From positions 62,001 through 126,000 of the forward strand of contig JADLEQ010000028.1 in NCBI GenBank assembly GCA_020846005.1: 64,000 nucleotides of DNA, read 5' to 3'. The position numbers were made by a program, and so were the translations under genes. Source of the DNA: Polyangiaceae bacterium. Lineage in GTDB: Bacteria > Myxococcota_A > Polyangia > Polyangiales > Polyangiaceae. The notes beneath the pieces were generated by a model, which had not been told where the DNA came from, did no database searches, and worked only from the letters and a program-made list of their open reading frames with translations. Numbering within the stretch: position 1 is the stretch's first letter; every line of letters starts with the position of its first letter. Shown here piece after piece: positions 41,192 through 50,819 of the stretch.

Positions 41192-42847
41192 ATGAGGACG
41201 CGAGAACGACCGAGGGTGGCGCTGGTGGTGGCCCTCCTCCTCGCGGCGGCGGCGCCGGGCGCGCTCGCGCAGCCCGCGGCGGGCGCCACCGGGAGCGTGG
41301 AGGGCGCCGTCGTCGCGCTGGAGGAGGGGGAGCTGATCGTGGATCTCTCCTCGGCGACCGGCGCGGCGGTCGGCGATCGCGTGGAGCTGTGGCGCAAGGT
41401 CCAGCTCCGGCACCCGGTCACCGGCCGGCCGGTGGCCGACCGCTTCCGGATCGGGACGCTGGAGCTGCTCCAGGTGGGCGCGCAGCTCTCGCTCGCGCGA
41501 CCGGACGGCGCGCTCTCGCGCAAGCCGGCGCCTGGAGATGTCGTGGTGCTCCCGCGCCGCGCGGCCGCGCCGGCGCCCGCCGGGAGCGAGACCCCCGCGC
41601 CTCCGTCCGGCGTCACGGCGGCGCCCGCGCCGGACGCCGCCGCCGCGACGCCGGCGCTCGACGCCGACGCGACGGCGGTCTCGCGGCTGTTCGACGGGCT
41701 GCGCGGGGCCCCGCTCGTGGCGCGCATCCGCGCCTATGAGGACTACGTCCGCGCCCACCCGCGCGGCCGTTACGCGGTCGTCCTCTTCGAGGAGGCCGCG
41801 GCCCTGCGCCGGCTGCTCGAGCCCACCGAGACGGCCGGTCTGGCGACCACGCTCGCGCTCCGCTCGCACGAGGCCCCGCGCTCCGTGCTCGCGCGGGCCC
41901 CGGTCACGGTGGGCGTGGAGCTCACAGGCGAGCCGGTCGGCGCGGTGCTCCACGCCCGCGCGAGCCACGAGCCGGCGTACCGTTCGGTACCCATGCGCCC
42001 CACCGGGGGCGGCTACTGGGCGGCGACCCTCCCGGCCGATCGGGTCACCGGACCGCGCCTCCAGTACTTCGTGGAGGCGACGCGCGCGGACGGGACGGCG
42101 GTCGCCGTCGTCGGCCGCCAGGACGCCCCCATCGACGTGCGCGTCGACGAGCGCCCCACCGTGGGCGGCGACGGGCGCTCACGGAACACCGCGTCCGTCT
42201 CCACGGACTACGCAGACTACAACCGCGGCCGCGGCAACGACGTGGCGTGGCAGACCGAGGGGGTCCTCGGGATGCGGCTGCGGGACGTGGGGGTGCGCGC
42301 CGTCCGCTCCGGCTTCGGCGTGTACCGTGGCGTCGGCGGATCGGTGGAGGAGCTCGACGAGCGCGGCCTCGCCGGCCGCAGCGTCGGCCTCACGTACGGC
42401 TACCTCGAGACGGAGCTCGGCCTGAGCCGGCTGACGGGGCTCGGCGGGCGGCTGGTCCTCGGCCTGGAGGACGACGGACTCGACGGCGGCTTCCAGCTCT
42501 CGCTGCGCGTGGGATCGGACCTCGAGACGAACCTCCTGCTCGGCGGCGAGGTCCTCGGAGGGGTCGGGCTGCGCGGCTTCACGCAGCTCGATCTCCGCGC
42601 CATCGAGCGGGTGCCGATGTCGTTCCGCGTGGAGGTGACGAACCAGCCCGCAGGGACCTCCAGCGACCGCGGCGACACGGACGATGACGAAGCGCGCGAG
42701 GGGAGCGAGGTGGGCGCCCGCGCGATCGCCCAGGTGGGCTACGTCGTGGCGCCCGGCCTGGAGCTCGCGCTGCGCGGCTCCTACCAGGGCAGAACGATCC
42801 GACATGCCGGTCCCGGGATCGGCGGAGCAGTGGGGTTCTCATGGTGA
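41192..42847 (+). CDS. Outer-membrane beta-barrel protein candidate, first of an overlapping pair
   Basis: This 551-residue protein has a signal peptide (VALVVALLLAAAAPGALA, then QPAAG). An N-terminal domain of about 100 residues (SVEGAVVALEEGELIVDLSS, KVQLRHPVTGRPVADRF) resembles small beta domains. An Ala/Pro linker and a helix region at about 160-215 follow. The C-terminal half has alternating strand patterns (LSLRVGSDLETNLLLGGEVL, MSFRVEVTNQP, LELALRGSYQG) ending in GAVGFSW, an aromatic C-terminus as used by the BAM complex. Its stop overlaps the next gene by seven bases, and the two share a similar build. The function is unknown. Confidence 0.72.
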   Translation: MRTRERPRVALVVALLLAAAAPGALAQPAAGATGSVEGAVVALEEGELIVDLSSATGAAVGDRVELWRKVQLRHPVTGRPVADRFRIGTLELLQVGAQLSLARPDGALSRKPAPGDVVVLPRRAAAPAPAGSETPAPPSGVTAAPAPDAAAATPALDADATAVSRLFDGLRGAPLVARIRAYEDYVRAHPRGRYAVVLFEEAAALRRLLEPTETAGLATTLALRSHEAPRSVLARAPVTVGVELTGEPVGAVLHARASHEPAYRSVPMRPTGGGYWAATLPADRVTGPRLQYFVEATRADGTAVAVVGRQDAPIDVRVDERPTVGGDGRSRNTASVSTDYADYNRGRGNDVAWQTEGVLGMRLRDVGVRAVRSGFGVYRGVGGSVEELDERGLAGRSVGLTYGYLETELGLSRLTGLGGRLVLGLEDDGLDGGFQLSLRVGSDLETNLLLGGEVLGGVGLRGFTQLDLRAIERVPMSFRVEVTNQPAGTSSDRGDTDDDEAREGSEVGARAIAQVGYVVAPGLELALRGSYQGRTIRHAGPGIGGAVGFSW

Positions 42848-44058
42848 CTCGTCGCGCTCTCGTCACTCCGCCTGGCGCCGCCTGCCGGCGCGCCGTGGCG
42901 CTCCTCCTCGCCGCGACCGCCGCACCGGCGCCTGGGGTGGCGCGCGCCGACGCCCCTCCGCCGGGCGCGGCGCCGCCGGTGGCGCCCGCCGCTCCCGCGC
43001 AGCCCGACGCCGGAGCGCCGGCGCCGCGGGGGCCCGCCGCGCCCCGGGTCCACCACGCGCCGATCGCGTCGGCGAAGCCCGGCGAGCCGCTGCTCGTCCG
43101 CGCCGAGCTCGAGCACCCCCACCTCGTCGCCAGCCTGGTGGTGGTCCACCGCGCGCTCGGCGCGCACGCGTGGTCGGCGACGCCGATGCTCCGCGCGGAG
43201 GGCAACGGCTGGGTCGCCACCGTGCCGGCGGCCGCGGCCCGGGCGCCCGGCCTCGAGTACGTCCTCGAGCTCGAGCGCACCGACGGCGCCCGCCTGCCGG
43301 TGTTCGCCACGCGCGACGAGCCCCACCCCGTGCAGATCGCGCCGGCGACCCTGGACGAGAGCGAGCGCCTCCTCGACGAGCGCGTGGGCGGTCGGCGCAG
43401 CGTGTTCTTCGCCAGCTCCGAGTACGTGACCTTCGGGCGCGTCACCGCCGCCCTCCCGGACTCGGGGAGCGCCGCCTCGCGCCGGGTGGACGACCGGTAC
43501 TGGCGAGCCGAAGGCGGGTATGCCTACCGCCCGCTGCGGACCGTCACCGAGTTCCGTCTCCGGCTGGGCGCCGTGCGGGGCGACGCGCCCGTCAAGTCCG
43601 AGGGCTACGATCCCGGCACCGCCGAGGGCGACCCGTTCGCGGTCGGCCTCAACTACGGCGCCCCGACGGTCCGCCTCCGAGTGACGGACGGCGTGCACGT
43701 CGAGGGCGAGGGGCTCGTGAGCATCAACCAGATCGGCTTCTCCCTCGGGATGGGCGGCGCGGTGCTCCTCGGCGACCCCTACGGCGGGCGGCTCACGATC
43801 GGGTTCGAGACGGTGCAGGTGTTCGGGACGCGCTTCTACTCACGCCTGGACGTACCCATCGCCCCCGGGCTGCTGCTCGCGCCCATGGTCGAGGTCACCG
43901 ACATGCCGAGCGCCGAGGACTACGGCGTACGGCTGCTCGGGGAGCTCGCGATGGACGCCGGCCTCGGCCTCTCGGTCACGCTGCGCGGCGGCTGGCAGGC
44001 GCGCGAGGCGACGAGCGGCGGCCCCAGCGCTGGGGCGGGCGTGAGCTACGCGTTCTGA
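42841..44058 (+). CDS. Outer-membrane beta-barrel protein candidate, second of the pair
   Basis: This 405-residue protein has a signal sequence (AVALLLAATAAPAPGVARA) followed by a Pro/Ala linker. The domain at about 70-165 (HHAPIASAKPGEPLLVRAEL, WVATVPAAAARAPGLEYVLEL) resembles the middle domain of the upstream protein (WAATLPADRVTGPRLQYFVEA). The C-terminal 240 residues are strand-rich with aromatic girdle residues (YWRAEGGYAYRPLRTVTEFRLRLG, RLTIGFETVQVFGTRFYSRL) and end in GVSYAF, a typical outer-membrane barrel terminus. The pair probably arose by duplication and divergence. Confidence 0.75.
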   Translation: MVTRRALVTPPGAACRRAVALLLAATAAPAPGVARADAPPPGAAPPVAPAAPAQPDAGAPAPRGPAAPRVHHAPIASAKPGEPLLVRAELEHPHLVASLVVVHRALGAHAWSATPMLRAEGNGWVATVPAAAARAPGLEYVLELERTDGARLPVFATRDEPHPVQIAPATLDESERLLDERVGGRRSVFFASSEYVTFGRVTAALPDSGSAASRRVDDRYWRAEGGYAYRPLRTVTEFRLRLGAVRGDAPVKSEGYDPGTAEGDPFAVGLNYGAPTVRLRVTDGVHVEGEGLVSINQIGFSLGMGGAVLLGDPYGGRLTIGFETVQVFGTRFYSRLDVPIAPGLLLAPMVEVTDMPSAEDYGVRLLGELAMDAGLGLSVTLRGGWQAREATSGGPSAGAGVSYAF

Positions 44059-45734: not shown

Positions 45735-46940
45735 ATGCGGTTCACGCGCTGGTGCTCGGGGCTCCTGTTCGTGGGGTTCGCGGCCTGCTCGGCGGCGAGC
45801 GGGGGCGGCGGGGCCGCCGGGGGCGGCGGGGGCGGCGGCGGCGGCGGGAACCAGGACGGCGGCGGCGCGGCGAGCGCGGGCGGCGCCGGCACGGGCGGCG
45901 CCGGCATGGGCGGCGCCGGCACGGGCGGCGCCGGCACGGGCGGCGCCGGAGCGGGCGGGAACGCCGGCACGGGGGGGATGGCAGTGGGGGGGATGGGATC
46001 GGTCGGCTCCGGGGGCACCCAACCGACCTCGGAGCAGTGCAACCAGCTCGACGACGACGGCAACGGGCTGGTCGACGAAGGCTGCACCTGTCAGGACTCG
46101 ACGACCCAGCCGTGCTGGCTCGGCGCGCCCGAGCGCCGCTCGCAGGGCGCGTGCCGCGACGGCGTGCAGGCGTGCACCCTGGTCGGGGAGTTCTCGACCT
46201 GGGGCCCCTGCGTCGGCGCGGTGCTCCCGAGCGGCGAGGTCCCCGGCAACGCGATCGACGAGGACTGCGACGGAGAGGATCCCCAGCCCTGCGTGCCGTC
46301 CCACACCTACGAGGTGTGCGCGAGCGGGGCCGACGAGGACTGCAACGGCCTGCAAGACTGCCAGGATCCGGCGTGCGCCGCGGGCTGCGGCTGCGGCGCG
46401 GAGCAGTGCGGGAACGGGCTCGACGACGACTGCGACGACGACGTCGACTGCGCGGATCCGGACTGTGTGTCGGCGACCGAGTGCAAGCCGGTGTCGGGCT
46501 GCGTGGCGGTGTTCCCCTTCTTCGTAGAGGTGTTCTGCCAGAACGGCGCCGACGACGACTGCGACGGCAAGGTCGACTGCGACGACCGCGACTGCCGCAG
46601 GCCCGGGAGCTGCGGCTGCGGGCAGACGGAGGCGAGCTGCGCGGACGGCGCCGACGACGACTGCGACGGCGAGACGGACTGCGGCGATCTCGACTGCCAG
46701 CAGTGCGCGCCAGGCAGCAAGCGATGGTGCGACGACCCGGTCTACTGCCACTGGGGCGAGCAGCAGTGCGGTCCGGACGGCCGCTGGGGGCAGTGCATCG
46801 AGACGACCGCGCCGTCGGGCTGCTCCGGATCCATCTACAACCTGCAGTGCTGCCTCGCGCAGGGCAACTGTTGCCAGAACTACCCGACGGACGACACCTC
46901 CGTCGGCCAGTGCGATGGCATCGTGACCTGCCGCAACTAG
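45735..46940 (+). CDS. MopE-like Cys/Asp-repeat lipoprotein
   Basis: This 401-residue protein has the lipobox LFVGFAAC near residue 18. A Gly/Ala/Thr linker spans about residues 22-95 and includes five GAGTG-type units. Residue 100 onward holds CNQLDDDGNGLVDEGC, the putative metal-binding motif of MopE-type proteins. Residues 195-325 contain four tandem repeats of about 30-40 residues of the form C-x-x-G-x-D-D-D-C-D-G-x-x-D-C-x-D-x-D-C (for example CQNGADDDCDGKVDC and CADGADDDCDGETDC). These Asp ladders should bind calcium, with disulphides holding each loop. It is surface-anchored by inference. It is followed 12 bases later by another Cys-rich lipoprotein gene. Confidence 0.85.
   Translation: MRFTRWCSGLLFVGFAACSAASGGGGAAGGGGGGGGGGNQDGGGAASAGGAGTGGAGMGGAGTGGAGTGGAGAGGNAGTGGMAVGGMGSVGSGGTQPTSEQCNQLDDDGNGLVDEGCTCQDSTTQPCWLGAPERRSQGACRDGVQACTLVGEFSTWGPCVGAVLPSGEVPGNAIDEDCDGEDPQPCVPSHTYEVCASGADEDCNGLQDCQDPACAAGCGCGAEQCGNGLDDDCDDDVDCADPDCVSATECKPVSGCVAVFPFFVEVFCQNGADDDCDGKVDCDDRDCRRPGSCGCGQTEASCADGADDDCDGETDCGDLDCQQCAPGSKRWCDDPVYCHWGEQQCGPDGRWGQCIETTAPSGCSGSIYNLQCCLAQGNCCQNYPTDDTSVGQCDGIVTCRN
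45882..45956. repeat. Five 15-base tandem units encoding the GAGxG linker
   Basis: GGCGCCGGCACGGGC is repeated five times head to tail (units 2 and 5 differ at one and three positions). It encodes GAGTG/GAGMG/GAGAG in the linker of the MopE-like lipoprotein. The length is likely to vary between strains by slippage. Confidence 0.85.
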
Positions 46941-46952
46941 CGGCGAGCCCGA

Positions 46953-47741
46953 GTGCGGAGCCGTCCCGCGAGCCGGGGGAGTCACGCGGTCGCCGCCGTG
47001 GCGTGGCTCGCCCTGGCCGGCTGCCGCGAGGCGGGCTCCGGCCCAGCGGGGACGGGGCCGGCCGCCGCCAGGGCGCGCGGCGCGGCGCCGGCGCCCGCCG
47101 ACGTGGGGTCGGACTGCGCCGACGTCGGGGCCGCGCGCGCCTGCTGGTCCGAGGGGAGCCCGGGGAGCGTGCTCGGCGTCGTCGCGGTGCCCCGCCCTCC
47201 CCCGCCCCACGGCGCGCCGGGCGACTGGCGGTGTCGGGGCGCCGGCGCGGAGCGCACGTGCGCTCCGGCCGCCGAGAGCGCGGGGCCGTTCGAGTGCGCG
47301 GGCGATCGCTGCACCCAGCGCTTCCCCCGTCTCCCCGACGACCACGAGTGGGAGTGCGCGGACGTCGACGGAGTCGTGATCTGCCGGAGCTGGAGCGCGG
47401 GCGCCGGGTTCGTGCCGGGGCGGCCCGACTCCGGGTACCGGTGCGGCGCCGTGCGGGGCGAGCCGGAGGAGCGCGTGTGCGTGGATTTCGCGCCGGACCG
47501 CCCGCCCGGCGAGCCGTGGGACTGCTCCTTCGGCAACGAGCCGGGCACGCCGAGCCGCACCTGCGTGCGTGGGGGCCGCGAGCCGCTCGGTCGCCGGTGC
47601 GGCTCGGCTTGCCCGTTCGGCGCCGTGTGCGCCGGAGATCGCTGCCTCCCCCTCGCGGCGCGCCCCGACTGCTGGACGGATCGTGACTGCGCGCCGGGCG
47701 CGCGGTGCGCCTTCGCCACGTGCCGGGAGCCCCCGAGGTGA
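46953..47741 (+). CDS. Cys-rich lipoprotein
   Basis: This 262-residue protein starts GTG at 46953, with lipobox AWLALAGC near residue 24. Residues 50-260 hold about 20 Cys in short loops: CADVGAARACW, CRGAGAERTC, CAGDRCTQRF, CADVDGVVICRSW, CGAVRGEPEERVC, CGSACPFGAVCAGDRC and CWTDRDCAPGARCAFATC. The repeated (W/Y)xCxxxxxxxxxC(V/R)xF-like units suggest an ancient internal duplication. The function is unknown. Its stop overlaps the GTG of the multihaem gene by four bases, which suggests both proteins are made together. Confidence 0.8.
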   Translation: MRSRPASRGSHAVAAVAWLALAGCREAGSGPAGTGPAAARARGAAPAPADVGSDCADVGAARACWSEGSPGSVLGVVAVPRPPPPHGAPGDWRCRGAGAERTCAPAAESAGPFECAGDRCTQRFPRLPDDHEWECADVDGVVICRSWSAGAGFVPGRPDSGYRCGAVRGEPEERVCVDFAPDRPPGEPWDCSFGNEPGTPSRTCVRGGREPLGRRCGSACPFGAVCAGDRCLPLAARPDCWTDRDCAPGARCAFATCREPPR

Positions 47742-49687
47742 CGCGGATCCGGCGGCTGGGCGCGCTCAGCGTCGCGCTCGGCGTGGCCGCGTGCGCGGCG
47801 CGCGAGCCCGCGCCCGTCGCCGAGGCGCGGCTGGTCGTCGCCGCGCCGATCGAGGGCGACGTCGCGCTCGACGAGCTCAAGTGGACTCCGCCCGGCGCCG
47901 CGCGGATCGTACGCGCGGGGCGCGAGGTGGAGCTCGCGGTCCGACCCGCCGCGGCGCCGGGGGGGCTCGTCCTCGGAGCGCCGGGCGCTTGCCCACGCCG
48001 ATGGACCGGCACGGAGTCGGCAGCGGAGGAGCGGGTGCGGCTGGTCCCTGCGTTCGGGGTGCGCGGGGGCGATCTCGCGCAGCTCGGCTACGGCGCGCCG
48101 TTCGAGCTCCGGCTCGTGCCCGGGTGTGACGAGGCGCGCGCCGCGCACGTGACGTGGCGCGTGACCTCCGGCGCGACGATCGACCTCACGGCGGCCGAGG
48201 ACGGCCACGTCGCCCGGGGGCGGCTGCCCGACGCGGAGGCAGCCGGGCTGCGCGCGCCTCCGTGGGGCCTCGCCCCGATCTCGCCCCGTTCACGAGGTGA
48301 GATCACGCTCGAGGCGAGCTGGGAGCTCGAGGGAGTACCCTCCCGGCGGACGGTCCGGGTCGCCGCCGCGGCGCGCGCGAGCGGCCTGCCGAGCGTCGCC
48401 GTCGGCCAGCGCCTGTGGCTGGCCGGCGCTGGCTGGCGCGTCCAGGACCGCCCTCCGCGCGCCGCAGGCGGAGTCGCCGCGGCGGGCTCCTGGAGCGCGC
48501 TCGTGCCGGACGAGCGCGGGCGCTGGACGCTCGTGGACGCGAGCGGCCGCGCGCTCTCGATCGTGGTCGGGCGCCACGCCGAGACGCCGCTCGACTGCGG
48601 GCGCAGCGAATGTCACCACGACGTGGCGAGCGCGGCCACCGGCACGCGGATGGCGACGACCTTCCACGACCTGCTCGGGAGGCTGCGGCCCTCGGAGCCC
48701 GCCTGCGCGCTCGGCTGCCACGCCGTCGGCGAGCCGGGGCTCGCCGACGGCGGCTTCGCCCACGTCCTCGCCTCGCTCGGCGCGCCCCCGCGCTTCGAGA
48801 CGGGCCCCGCGGCGTGGGACGCGTTGCCGCGCCCCCTGCGGCGCCTCGGCGGCGTCGGCTGCACGGCGTGCCACGGCCCCGGAGCGATCCCAGAGCCGTC
48901 TGCCTCCTGGGCCATCCTGCGGGCCGACGTGTGCGCGGTGTGTCACGACGCACCGCCGCGTTACACCCACGTCGAGGGCTGGGCACGCTCGAAGATGGCG
49001 ACGGCGGACCGCGATCCCGCTACGCGGGAGCCCGCGTGCCGTGGCTGCCATGGGACGGCTGGGTATCTGGCGCGGATCACCGGGGCGCCGGAGCGGGAGC
49101 TCCCCCCCGGCATCGCCACCGGCATCGCCTGCGCTGCGTGCCACGCGCCGCACGGCGCGCACGCGGGGGAGCTGATCCGCGACGTGGCGTCGCCGACCGG
49201 CGGGCCCGCGATCACCGACGCCGCGAGCCGACTCTGCGCGAGCTGCCACTCGGACCCGAGCCCCGGCGGGCCGCGCGCCTCGGCGGCGACGCTGGTTCAC
49301 GGCGCGGCGCCCGGGGCGACCCCGCCCCACGCGGCGGTCCCCGGCGGGTGCCTCGGCTGCCACGGCGACGGCGACGCGGCGACCACCACCGCCCGCGGCC
49401 ACGGCCACGCCTTCGCGGTCGACCGCTCGCGCTGCGCGACGCGCTGCCACGTGGGGGCGCCGCCGCTCGACGACCGCGGGGCGCTCGCGCGGCGCGCCCG
49501 GGAGCTGTATCGATCGCTGGGCGGCGAGGCGCTGGCGGAGGGGACGCCGCCCCACGCGCGCCGCCGCGCTGGAGCGCCGAGCACGCGCGCGCTCGAGGCG
49601 GTCCGCCTGGTGCTCGAGGACCCGGCGGCGTGGGCCCACAACGCCCCTTACGCGCGCGCGCTGCTGGAGGGCGCGCGGCCCCGCTAG
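47738..49687 (+). CDS. Multihaem c-type cytochrome lipoprotein (up to nine haem sites)
   Basis: This 649-residue protein starts GTG at 47738, chosen for its GTGA overlap with the upstream gene. The lipobox is ALGVAAC near residue 18. Residues 30-280 are beta-rich without haem motifs. From 287 on there are six canonical CxxCH sites (C375, C399, C434, C465, C500, C538), two C-x3-CH sites (C323 CALGCH and C566 CATRCH) and one C-x4-CH (C287 CGRSECH). Haem attached by these would need maturation tolerant of longer spacing. It is likely an electron carrier at the outer membrane or in the periplasm. No cytochrome maturation gene is in the window. Confidence 0.88.
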   Translation: MTRIRRLGALSVALGVAACAAREPAPVAEARLVVAAPIEGDVALDELKWTPPGAARIVRAGREVELAVRPAAAPGGLVLGAPGACPRRWTGTESAAEERVRLVPAFGVRGGDLAQLGYGAPFELRLVPGCDEARAAHVTWRVTSGATIDLTAAEDGHVARGRLPDAEAAGLRAPPWGLAPISPRSRGEITLEASWELEGVPSRRTVRVAAAARASGLPSVAVGQRLWLAGAGWRVQDRPPRAAGGVAAAGSWSALVPDERGRWTLVDASGRALSIVVGRHAETPLDCGRSECHHDVASAATGTRMATTFHDLLGRLRPSEPACALGCHAVGEPGLADGGFAHVLASLGAPPRFETGPAAWDALPRPLRRLGGVGCTACHGPGAIPEPSASWAILRADVCAVCHDAPPRYTHVEGWARSKMATADRDPATREPACRGCHGTAGYLARITGAPERELPPGIATGIACAACHAPHGAHAGELIRDVASPTGGPAITDAASRLCASCHSDPSPGGPRASAATLVHGAAPGATPPHAAVPGGCLGCHGDGDAATTTARGHGHAFAVDRSRCATRCHVGAPPLDDRGALARRARELYRSLGGEALAEGTPPHARRRAGAPSTRALEAVRLVLEDPAAWAHNAPYARALLEGARPR

Positions 49688-49740: not shown

Positions 49741-50301
49741 ATGCGTCCCCACCCCCCCGTGCGCTGGCTCCTCGCCTCGATCGGTCTCGCGCTCACAGGG
49801 TGTCCCCCGGCGGAGGCCCCGCGATCCGGGGACGCCGCCGAGGACGCAGGGCTCACGGAGGGCCCGAGCGACGTGGAGCTCCCGCCGCTCCCCGAGGGCG
49901 GGTCGAGCGCGCCCTCCGCGGCGGCCGAGCCCGGCGTCGTCCCCGTGCGACCGCCCGACTCCCGTCCCACGGGCACGCTCCCTCCCGCGGTGACGGCGCC
50001 CGCGCTCGAACCGACCCGCGCGCGAGTCCACGCCTGCTACGAGGCGGGCCTGGCGCGCGACCCGGCGCTCGCTGGCCGCGTCGTCGTCCGGCTCACCGTC
50101 GAGCCGGACGGGCGCGTGGGCCGCACGGAGCCCCATGAGCCGCCCACGCTCGGCGACCCGGCGGTCGTGACGTGCATCGAGGAGGTGCTCCGCGGCGTGC
50201 GCTTCCCCGCGCCGAAGGGGGGGCGCGCGGTGGTCCTCGTACCGTACGAGTTCGCGCCCGCGGACGCCGGCGCCGCGCGCGCCGAAGGGGGGGCGGGCTG
50301 A
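49741..50301 (+). CDS. Lipoprotein with AgmX/TonB-C-like domain
   Basis: This 186-residue protein has the lipobox IGLALTGC near residue 21. A Pro/Ser/Glu-rich linker runs to about 90. The C-terminal domain, about 92-178, reads VHACYEAGLARDPALAGRVVVRLTVEPDGRVG, CIEEVLRGVRFPAPKGG and VVLVPYEF. The pattern CYxxxLxxxPxLxGxVxVxxxVxxxGxV...C...L..xxFPxPxGG is the AgmX/PglI C-terminal domain of myxobacteria, related in shape to TonB C-terminal domains. AgmX in Myxococcus xanthus is linked to adventurous gliding motility; the exact role here is unknown. Confidence 0.8.
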   Translation: MRPHPPVRWLLASIGLALTGCPPAEAPRSGDAAEDAGLTEGPSDVELPPLPEGGSSAPSAAAEPGVVPVRPPDSRPTGTLPPAVTAPALEPTRARVHACYEAGLARDPALAGRVVVRLTVEPDGRVGRTEPHEPPTLGDPAVVTCIEEVLRGVRFPAPKGGRAVVLVPYEFAPADAGAARAEGGAG

Positions 50302-50348
50302 CCCAGCCCGGCTGCCCATCGGCGCCCGCGCGCGCCGCGATCGGCTGG

Positions 50349-50819
50349 GTGGAGTGCGGCTCGGCTCCGGCCCCGAGCCCGGCGTTCGGCGCGCTGGCTG
50401 GGCGAGCCTCCGCGAATGAGTGGGCACCGCCCCCACCGATGGCACCGCCCCCACCGATGGCACCGCCCCCACCGATGGCACCGCCCCCACCAATGGCACC
50501 GCCCCCGGCGCGGCTCGTAGCGAGCCTGCGCGACGAGCTCCGCGCCTGCTACGTGCGAGCGCGAGCTCGCGATCCCAAGCTCGTGGGGAACGGCTACCTC
50601 GCGTTCCTGGTCGAGGCGGACGGCAGGGTGGCCCGGAGCTGGAACTACCGACCGCCGACAGCGAACGATGACGCGACGCTCAGGTGCATCCACGACCGGG
50701 TGCGCGTGCTCAGGTTTCCTCGCCCGCCCGGTGGGCGACGAACCATCGTGTCGCCGGTGGGGTTCGTGGGCAGCGGCCCGCGGACGCCCGCGTCCGCGCC
50801 CGCGACCCGACGCCAGTGA
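50349..50819 (+). CDS. Second AgmX-like protein with APPPPM repeats
   Basis: This is a protein of about 156 residues; the start is uncertain (GTG 50349 used, no good ribosome-binding site). Four and a half copies of the hexapeptide APPPPM form a rigid Pro spacer at about residues 25-54. The C-terminal domain (ELRACYVRARARDPKLVGNGYLAFLVEADGRVARSW, RCIHDRVRVLRFPRPPGG, VSPVGF) has the same AgmX pattern as the upstream gene, so the two are tandem paralogues. No clear signal peptide is seen with this start; the export route is unclear. Confidence 0.65.
   Translation: MECGSAPAPSPAFGALAGRASANEWAPPPPMAPPPPMAPPPPMAPPPPMAPPPARLVASLRDELRACYVRARARDPKLVGNGYLAFLVEADGRVARSWNYRPPTANDDATLRCIHDRVRVLRFPRPPGGRRTIVSPVGFVGSGPRTPASAPATRRQ
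50424..50507. repeat. 18-base tandem repeat encoding APPPPM
   Basis: GCACCGCCCCCACCGATG is repeated exactly three times from 50424, then once with one change (ccaatg), then a partial fifth copy. Each unit is six codons, so copy number can change without frameshift. The unit also contains an in-frame ATG, which could allow several start points. Confidence 0.9.

Follow-up and report, generated by a model that had tools for sequence, protein, structure and literature searches.

OcwA of Thermincola potens is a nonahaem surface reductase in which haems 1-4 superpose on cytochrome c554 and haems 5-9 on the pentahaem nitrite reductase NrfA; its haems 2 and 5 are open and carry His-His pairs, and haem 9 has His-Met ligation (PMC6703420). 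In total, OcwA has seven distal ligands and two open haems. In a published tree, OcwA sits in a nonahaem subclade whose other members come from Gram-negative bacteria, and OmhA, which carries 11 haems, falls in a different clade (PMC7829351). Given that this subclade is otherwise Gram-negative, proteins of the broad kind described below are already known. Little was found in the literature on extracellular electron transfer in Myxococcota.

The window, a stretch of 64,000 nucleotides from a Polyangiaceae bacterium (contig JADLEQ010000028.1), encodes a protein that a first-pass annotation had read as a nine-site multihaem lipoprotein with CX3CH and CX4CH motifs. Translation of the open reading frame at 47738-49687 (+) confirms this: among the nine C...CH sites, CXXCH occurs six times, CX3CH twice and CX4CH once. 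Translation begins with a GTG (47738) that overlaps the stop codon of the preceding gene (GTGA), and an intact copy of the gene is located in the genome at G000:C28:109738-111684. The features of the protein and of the two genes before it are as follows.

45735-46940, + strand: P0003, Cys-rich lipoprotein with acidic MopE-type double-disulphide repeats (PF11617, NF033662), second gene upstream
46953-47741, + strand: P0002, Cys-rich lipoprotein directly upstream, its stop overlapping the cytochrome start
47738-49687, + strand: predicted nonahaem c-type cytochrome lipoprotein, 649 aa
47738-47794, + strand: signal peptide and lipobox VAAC (Cys19), residues 1-19
47819-48577, + strand: predicted tandem Ig-like beta domains, about residues 28-280 (AlphaFold2, Foldseek)
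48596-48616, + strand: haem site 1, CX4CH (CGRSECH), residue 287
48650-48652, + strand: Met305, candidate distal ligand
48704-48721, + strand: haem site 2, CX3CH (CALGCH), residue 323
48860-48874, + strand: haem site 3, CTACH, residue 375, conserved
48932-48946, + strand: haem site 4, CAVCH, residue 399, conserved
48995-48997, + strand: Met420, candidate distal ligand
49037-49051, + strand: haem site 5, CRGCH, residue 434, conserved
49130-49144, + strand: haem site 6, CAACH, residue 465, conserved
49235-49249, + strand: haem site 7, CASCH, residue 500, conserved
49349-49363, + strand: haem site 8, CLGCH, residue 538, conserved
49433-49450, + strand: haem site 9, CX3CH (CATRCH), residue 566
49466-49684, + strand: C-terminal helices resembling those of NrfA/OcwA, conserved D...H(N) (matched by profile to 6i5b, 6qvm and NrfA)

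Shuffling of the residues yields means per protein of 0.024 CXXCH, 0.023 CX3CH and 0.024 CX4CH against the six, two and one observed, and chance was rejected as a source of the odd motifs. There are 21 Cys residues, 18 of them in the nine sites; the others are the lipobox Cys19 and the pair Cys85 and Cys130 in the Ig-like region, a probable disulphide. The protein contains only two Met residues, 305 and 420.

Homologues were taken from relatives, from named genome contigs and from the class and phylum, the latter two searched with a 21-sequence profile. After removal of L066 and L070, apparently the same records as L024 and L023, 31 distinct rows remained, 19 from a core clade and 12 from a distant clade, which separate in the tree at 100/100. 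In the complete core homologues, the N terminus resembles a signal peptide with a lipobox-like Cys at its end, and together with the lipobox at Cys19 this bears out the lipid anchor proposed earlier. Homologues that keep the nine sites come from across Myxococcota.

As judged from sequence profiles, the window protein is a member of the NrfA/OcwA superfamily, with a c554-like module (haems 1-4) followed by an NrfA-like module (haems 5-9). The top solved relative is OcwA (PDB 6i5b, E 5.5e-23, in a match that spans haems 3-9 plus the C-terminal helices), and further matches include 6qvm (2.7e-18), NrfA (1.6e-16 to 1e-8), octahaem nitrite reductase (about 1e-9) and MccA (2e-4). The first seven sites of the distant-clade profile are collinear with OcwA haems 1-6, and the nine sites stand in a 4 + 5 arrangement collinear with OcwA, as is typical of the superfamily. 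In addition, D628 and H634 are invariant in the C-terminal region, which has the long helices and the D...HN motif of the superfamily. Like OcwA, the window protein would thus combine nine haems, c554 and NrfA modules and a C-terminal helix bundle with the HN motif. Unlike OcwA, which uses CXXCH (CKTCH at site 1), belongs to a Gram-positive host and has no N-terminal Ig-like domains, it bears such domains and has three of its nine sites otherwise spaced.

The other relatives share less. The 6qvm protein of Carboxydothermus, which we take to be an OmhA-type multihaem cytochrome, has homologous haem modules and C-terminal helices. NrfA shares the C-terminal module and helix bundle, but has a CXXCK active-site haem, whereas site 5 of the window protein is CRGCH and is CxxCH throughout the family; the NrfA active-site His position is also not conserved in the core clade. 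The N-terminal four-haem module is shared with cytochrome c554 (1bvb), which covers only about half of the haem domain and matches the start of the distant-clade profile at an E value of only 1.7e-4, and with the c554 domain of the UshA-like PCGU proteins (NF041198). The match to NF041198, a UshA-like selenoprotein family, reflects this shared module, and a selenoprotein link was rejected. Cytochrome c3 and the CxxxxCH/CxxCH proteins of TIGR01904 share the spacing of site 1 but are of a different family: TIGR01904 leaves the window protein unmatched at E 0.01 and matches three of 21 homologues, weakly. Against the decahaem MtrC/OmcA family (TIGR03507), the protein scores 17 bits where the cut-off is 209, and neither the ten haems nor the MtrB partner of that family is found.

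The candidate ligand residues differ from those of OcwA. Outside the motifs, the conserved His and Met residues are 305, 420, 472, 531, 557 and 634, with 411 conserved in the core clade only, a total of six or seven candidates for the distal ligation of nine haems. In the core clade, the OcwA haem-2 His-His pair aligns with Arg408-Tyr409 and the haem-5 pair with a Ser/Ala-rich stretch; hence the His-His pairs over haems 2 and 5 that characterise the OcwA terminal reductase are absent there. Much of the distant clade retains one His (PHAPQ) near haem 5. Met305 and Met420 replace ligand-position His residues of OcwA, the former aligning with chain His38 (SETSHGNF), and both may ligate haem. Position 305 holds Met throughout the core rows and His in each of the 12 distant rows, tracking the spacer length of site 2 exactly; because the change falls on a single split of the tree, this co-occurrence counts as one event rather than as independent covariation. 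Residue 420 is Met in 19/21 core rows and 10/12 distant rows, and His in L090 and L091. In L081 and L084, Met420 is changed along with the loss of the site-9 His, which bears on whether haem 9 has the His-Met coordination seen in OcwA, yet Met420 aligns with an OcwA His.

AlphaFold2 was run on the full protein and then on the haem domain alone, with ten sequences. The full-length run is confident in the Ig-like part only (mostly pLDDT 70-90), and the Foldseek matches to this region are Ig-like domains with low TM-scores. The haem domain was modelled at a pLDDT of about 50, and a fold search with this poor model gave no match.

The two Cys-rich lipoproteins said to precede the cytochrome are real genes (45735-46940 and 46953-47741), and their pairing with it is conserved. 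All complete core loci have a P0002 orthologue immediately upstream of the cytochrome gene, and orthologues of P0003 lie two genes upstream in many related loci, with 54-65% identity in several. The distant clade instead has a single Cys-rich protein, encoded at these positions.

L056:12270-13715, - strand: distant-clade Cys-rich protein
L057:6530-8140, + strand: distant-clade Cys-rich protein
L060:9142-10569, - strand: distant-clade Cys-rich protein

P0002-like repeats occur in the proteins of L056 and L060, and the P0003-like motif WCDD.YCSWG in those of L056, L057 and L060. Since features of both lipoproteins meet in one distant-clade protein, the sequences suggest that P0002 and P0003 work together. 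These proteins look as if the two window genes had been split or fused. Beyond the two lipoproteins, the only conserved flanking genes encode a MYXO-CTERM-like protein and a possible outer-membrane protein, each at three to four loci and absent from the window; the conserved unit includes no conserved porin or quinol donor.

At L056:11257-12354 (-) and L057:8176-9306 (+), a matrixin-like MYXO-CTERM protein of a metalloprotease family is encoded either between the genes for the Cys-rich protein and the nonahaem protein or next to them. Upstream of the lipoprotein unit in the window, the product of 42841-44058 has the look of an outer-membrane beta-barrel but matches nothing in Pfam or NCBIfam; it shows no homology to the possible outer-membrane protein encoded close to the unit in L047, L050, L023 and L024. 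Downstream, the adjacent genes at 49741-50301 and 50172-50819 encode products with similar ends, the first matching the AgmX/PglI tail domain (NF033768) and the second resembling it by eye. At L058:1-1407 (+), a protein ends in repeated CHSACHSACHSACH, the CH repeats of which are not haem motifs; the adjoining gene at L058:1377-2834 (+) encodes a radical SAM/SPASM-like protein, and the two resemble a modified-peptide (RiPP) pair.

The protein is best read, with reasonable confidence, as a nine-haem outer-membrane lipoprotein of the OcwA/NrfA type, loaded by Ccm and serving with its two Cys-rich partners as a wire for electron transfer or to a terminal reductase activity. In this reading, nine c-type haems would be bound covalently, including those at the CX4CH site 1 and the CX3CH sites 2 and 9, after loading by the general System I (Ccm) machinery. 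The c554-like and NrfA-like modules would be mounted on the N-terminal Ig-like domains, and electrons would enter and then pass along the nine-haem chain of an outer-membrane wire, for electron transfer or terminal reduction, acting with the two partner lipoproteins. We infer the haem occupancy, the outer-membrane location, the direction of electron flow and the partners. A wire is most likely, rather than a nitrite or hydroxylamine reductase, because the active-site His residues of OcwA and NrfA are missing. Electron transfer at the cell surface, as suggested in the first-pass annotation, is plausible by analogy with OcwA, the closest relative of solved structure, which acts as a terminal reductase at the surface; however, no MtrB/PioB homologue was found in the genome, nor any NapC/NirT donor above its family cut-off, and both results count against the favoured reading.

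The strongest competitor, itself unlikely, is a catalytic multihaem enzyme that reduces a small oxyanion or a nitrogen compound, faces the periplasm from the inner leaflet of the outer membrane and is no extracellular carrier. Besides the missing porin-type conduit, it draws on the nearest families, which include NrfA, octahaem nitrite reductase and MccA, and on a conserved stretch (Arg408, Tyr409 and His411) that aligns with the haem-2 His-His pair of OcwA. Furthermore, OcwA slowly reduces nitrite and both reduces and oxidises hydroxylamine (PMC6703420). Against such an enzyme stand the lack of any CXXCK, the Ser/Ala-rich stretch that replaces the haem-5 His of OcwA and NrfA in the core clade, and the Ig-like domains and Cys-rich partner lipoproteins, which suggest a surface structure.

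A second alternative holds that the three odd motifs are free of haem, as structural Cys or degenerate remnants, and that the protein is a hexahaem cytochrome. The motif alignments, which include the 12-member distant group, bear on this directly: all nine sites are present in every full-length homologue except L081 and L084. Site 1 is CX4CH in 30 of the 31 distinct homologues and CXXCH (CGRCH) in L004, and at site 2 each of the 19 core rows has CX3CH and each of the 12 distant rows CXXCH. For site 9, the motif is CX3CH in the window protein, L014, L021, L022 and L089, CX4CH in L027 and CXXCH in most other homologues; in L086-L088 its alignment slips, the ninth motif being present nonetheless. 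In L081 and L084, from two genomes of one genus, site 9 reads CVECP with its His lost, and His531 is changed as well as Met420. The loss of Cys or His in homologues, which the first-pass annotation had named as a refutation of the odd motifs, is thus not seen at sites 1 and 2 or, within the window clade, at site 9, but occurs at site 9 in this one lineage. The tree groups the window protein with L014, L021 and L022 (support 100/99) and places L089 apart from them, so that changes in the spacer length of site 9 probably occurred more than once, a single origin of its CX3CH being formally possible.

Because the sites stay in place and retain C...CH while their spacers differ in length, the CX4CH of site 1 and the CX3CH of sites 2 and 9 are probably haem-bearing. 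A hexahaem protein, for which speak the canonical restriction of the pattern to C-xx-CH and the dispensability of site 9 in the L081/L084 lineage, is therefore very improbable: at sites 1 and 2 neither the two Cys nor the His varies across a wide family, CXXCH stands in the equivalent place in relatives (in L004 for site 1, in the distant clade for site 2 and in most homologues for site 9), and OcwA and c554 bear haem at the corresponding positions.

The first-pass annotation also held that non-canonical spacing is rare and often needs special maturation, and neither view is upheld. The CX4CH of cytochrome c3 is matured by the Ccm system of Escherichia coli. CX4CH occurs twice in cytochrome c3 (PMC10454114), genome surveys routinely include CX3CH and CX4CH in their counts (PMC10734462, PMC5566968, PMC11434368), and dedicated lyases are described for CXXCK and CX15CH (PMC6976685, PMC3601427). 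In a search that covered the Cytochrom_C_asm and ResB families, the genome yielded three Cytochrom_C_asm proteins, which read as single copies of CcmF and CcmC and a HemX-like protein whose gene adjoins hemA. It has no true ResB protein or System II, and a dedicated haem lyase was looked for in the genome without success, the one CcmF being ordinary. Special maturation of the CX3CH and CX4CH sites is thus unlikely, and a lyase outside or beside Ccm that these sites require, although such enzymes exist for CXXCK and CX15CH, is the least probable of the alternatives, given that the Cytochrom_C_asm proteins are only those three, that the sole ResB match is weak and lies within CcmF, and that both spacings are widespread in surveys.

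Returning to the favoured outer-membrane wire, the change from CXXCH to CX3CH at haem 2, the replacement of His by Met305 and the loss of the His pairs could, as a tentative and rather doubtful proposal, have turned an OcwA-type reductase into a higher-potential His/Met wire, which with two Cys-rich metal-binding lipoproteins would form a surface electron-exchange unit that dispenses with a porin-cytochrome conduit. The exact co-occurrence of the haem-2 CX3CH with Met for His at 305 makes this a testable case of ligand switching. Similarly, the occurrence of the same haem site as CX2CH, CX3CH and CX4CH is a natural series in which the spacer tolerance of the Ccm lyase can be tested directly. 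The family extends the OcwA-type nonahaem cytochromes to lipoproteins of many Myxococcota, and what is new is a modest variant, namely Myxococcota OcwA-type lipoproteins with conserved, probably haem-bearing CX4CH and CX3CH sites.

Matches were found in 18 of 183 genomes of the order (single-sequence search), in 63 of 317 of the class (profile, 1e-20, more distant relatives included) and in 26 of 377 of the phylum (profile, 1e-40). The gene is absent from the one genome of the same genus that was searched (90% complete), and the function of the cytochrome is therefore accessory, with a patchy distribution. The genome also encodes a 13-haem protein with a weak match to QrcA, a five-haem protein that we read as the likely ActA subunit of alternative complex III, and a second five-haem protein; its multihaem repertoire is not Geobacter-like. 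On another contig of the same genome (C18), L096:1564-3444 (+) encodes a UshA-like PCGU protein whose C terminus is a c554 module that itself includes a CX3CH (CAGQCH), and the PCGC position of this protein is Cys, not selenocysteine (table 11).
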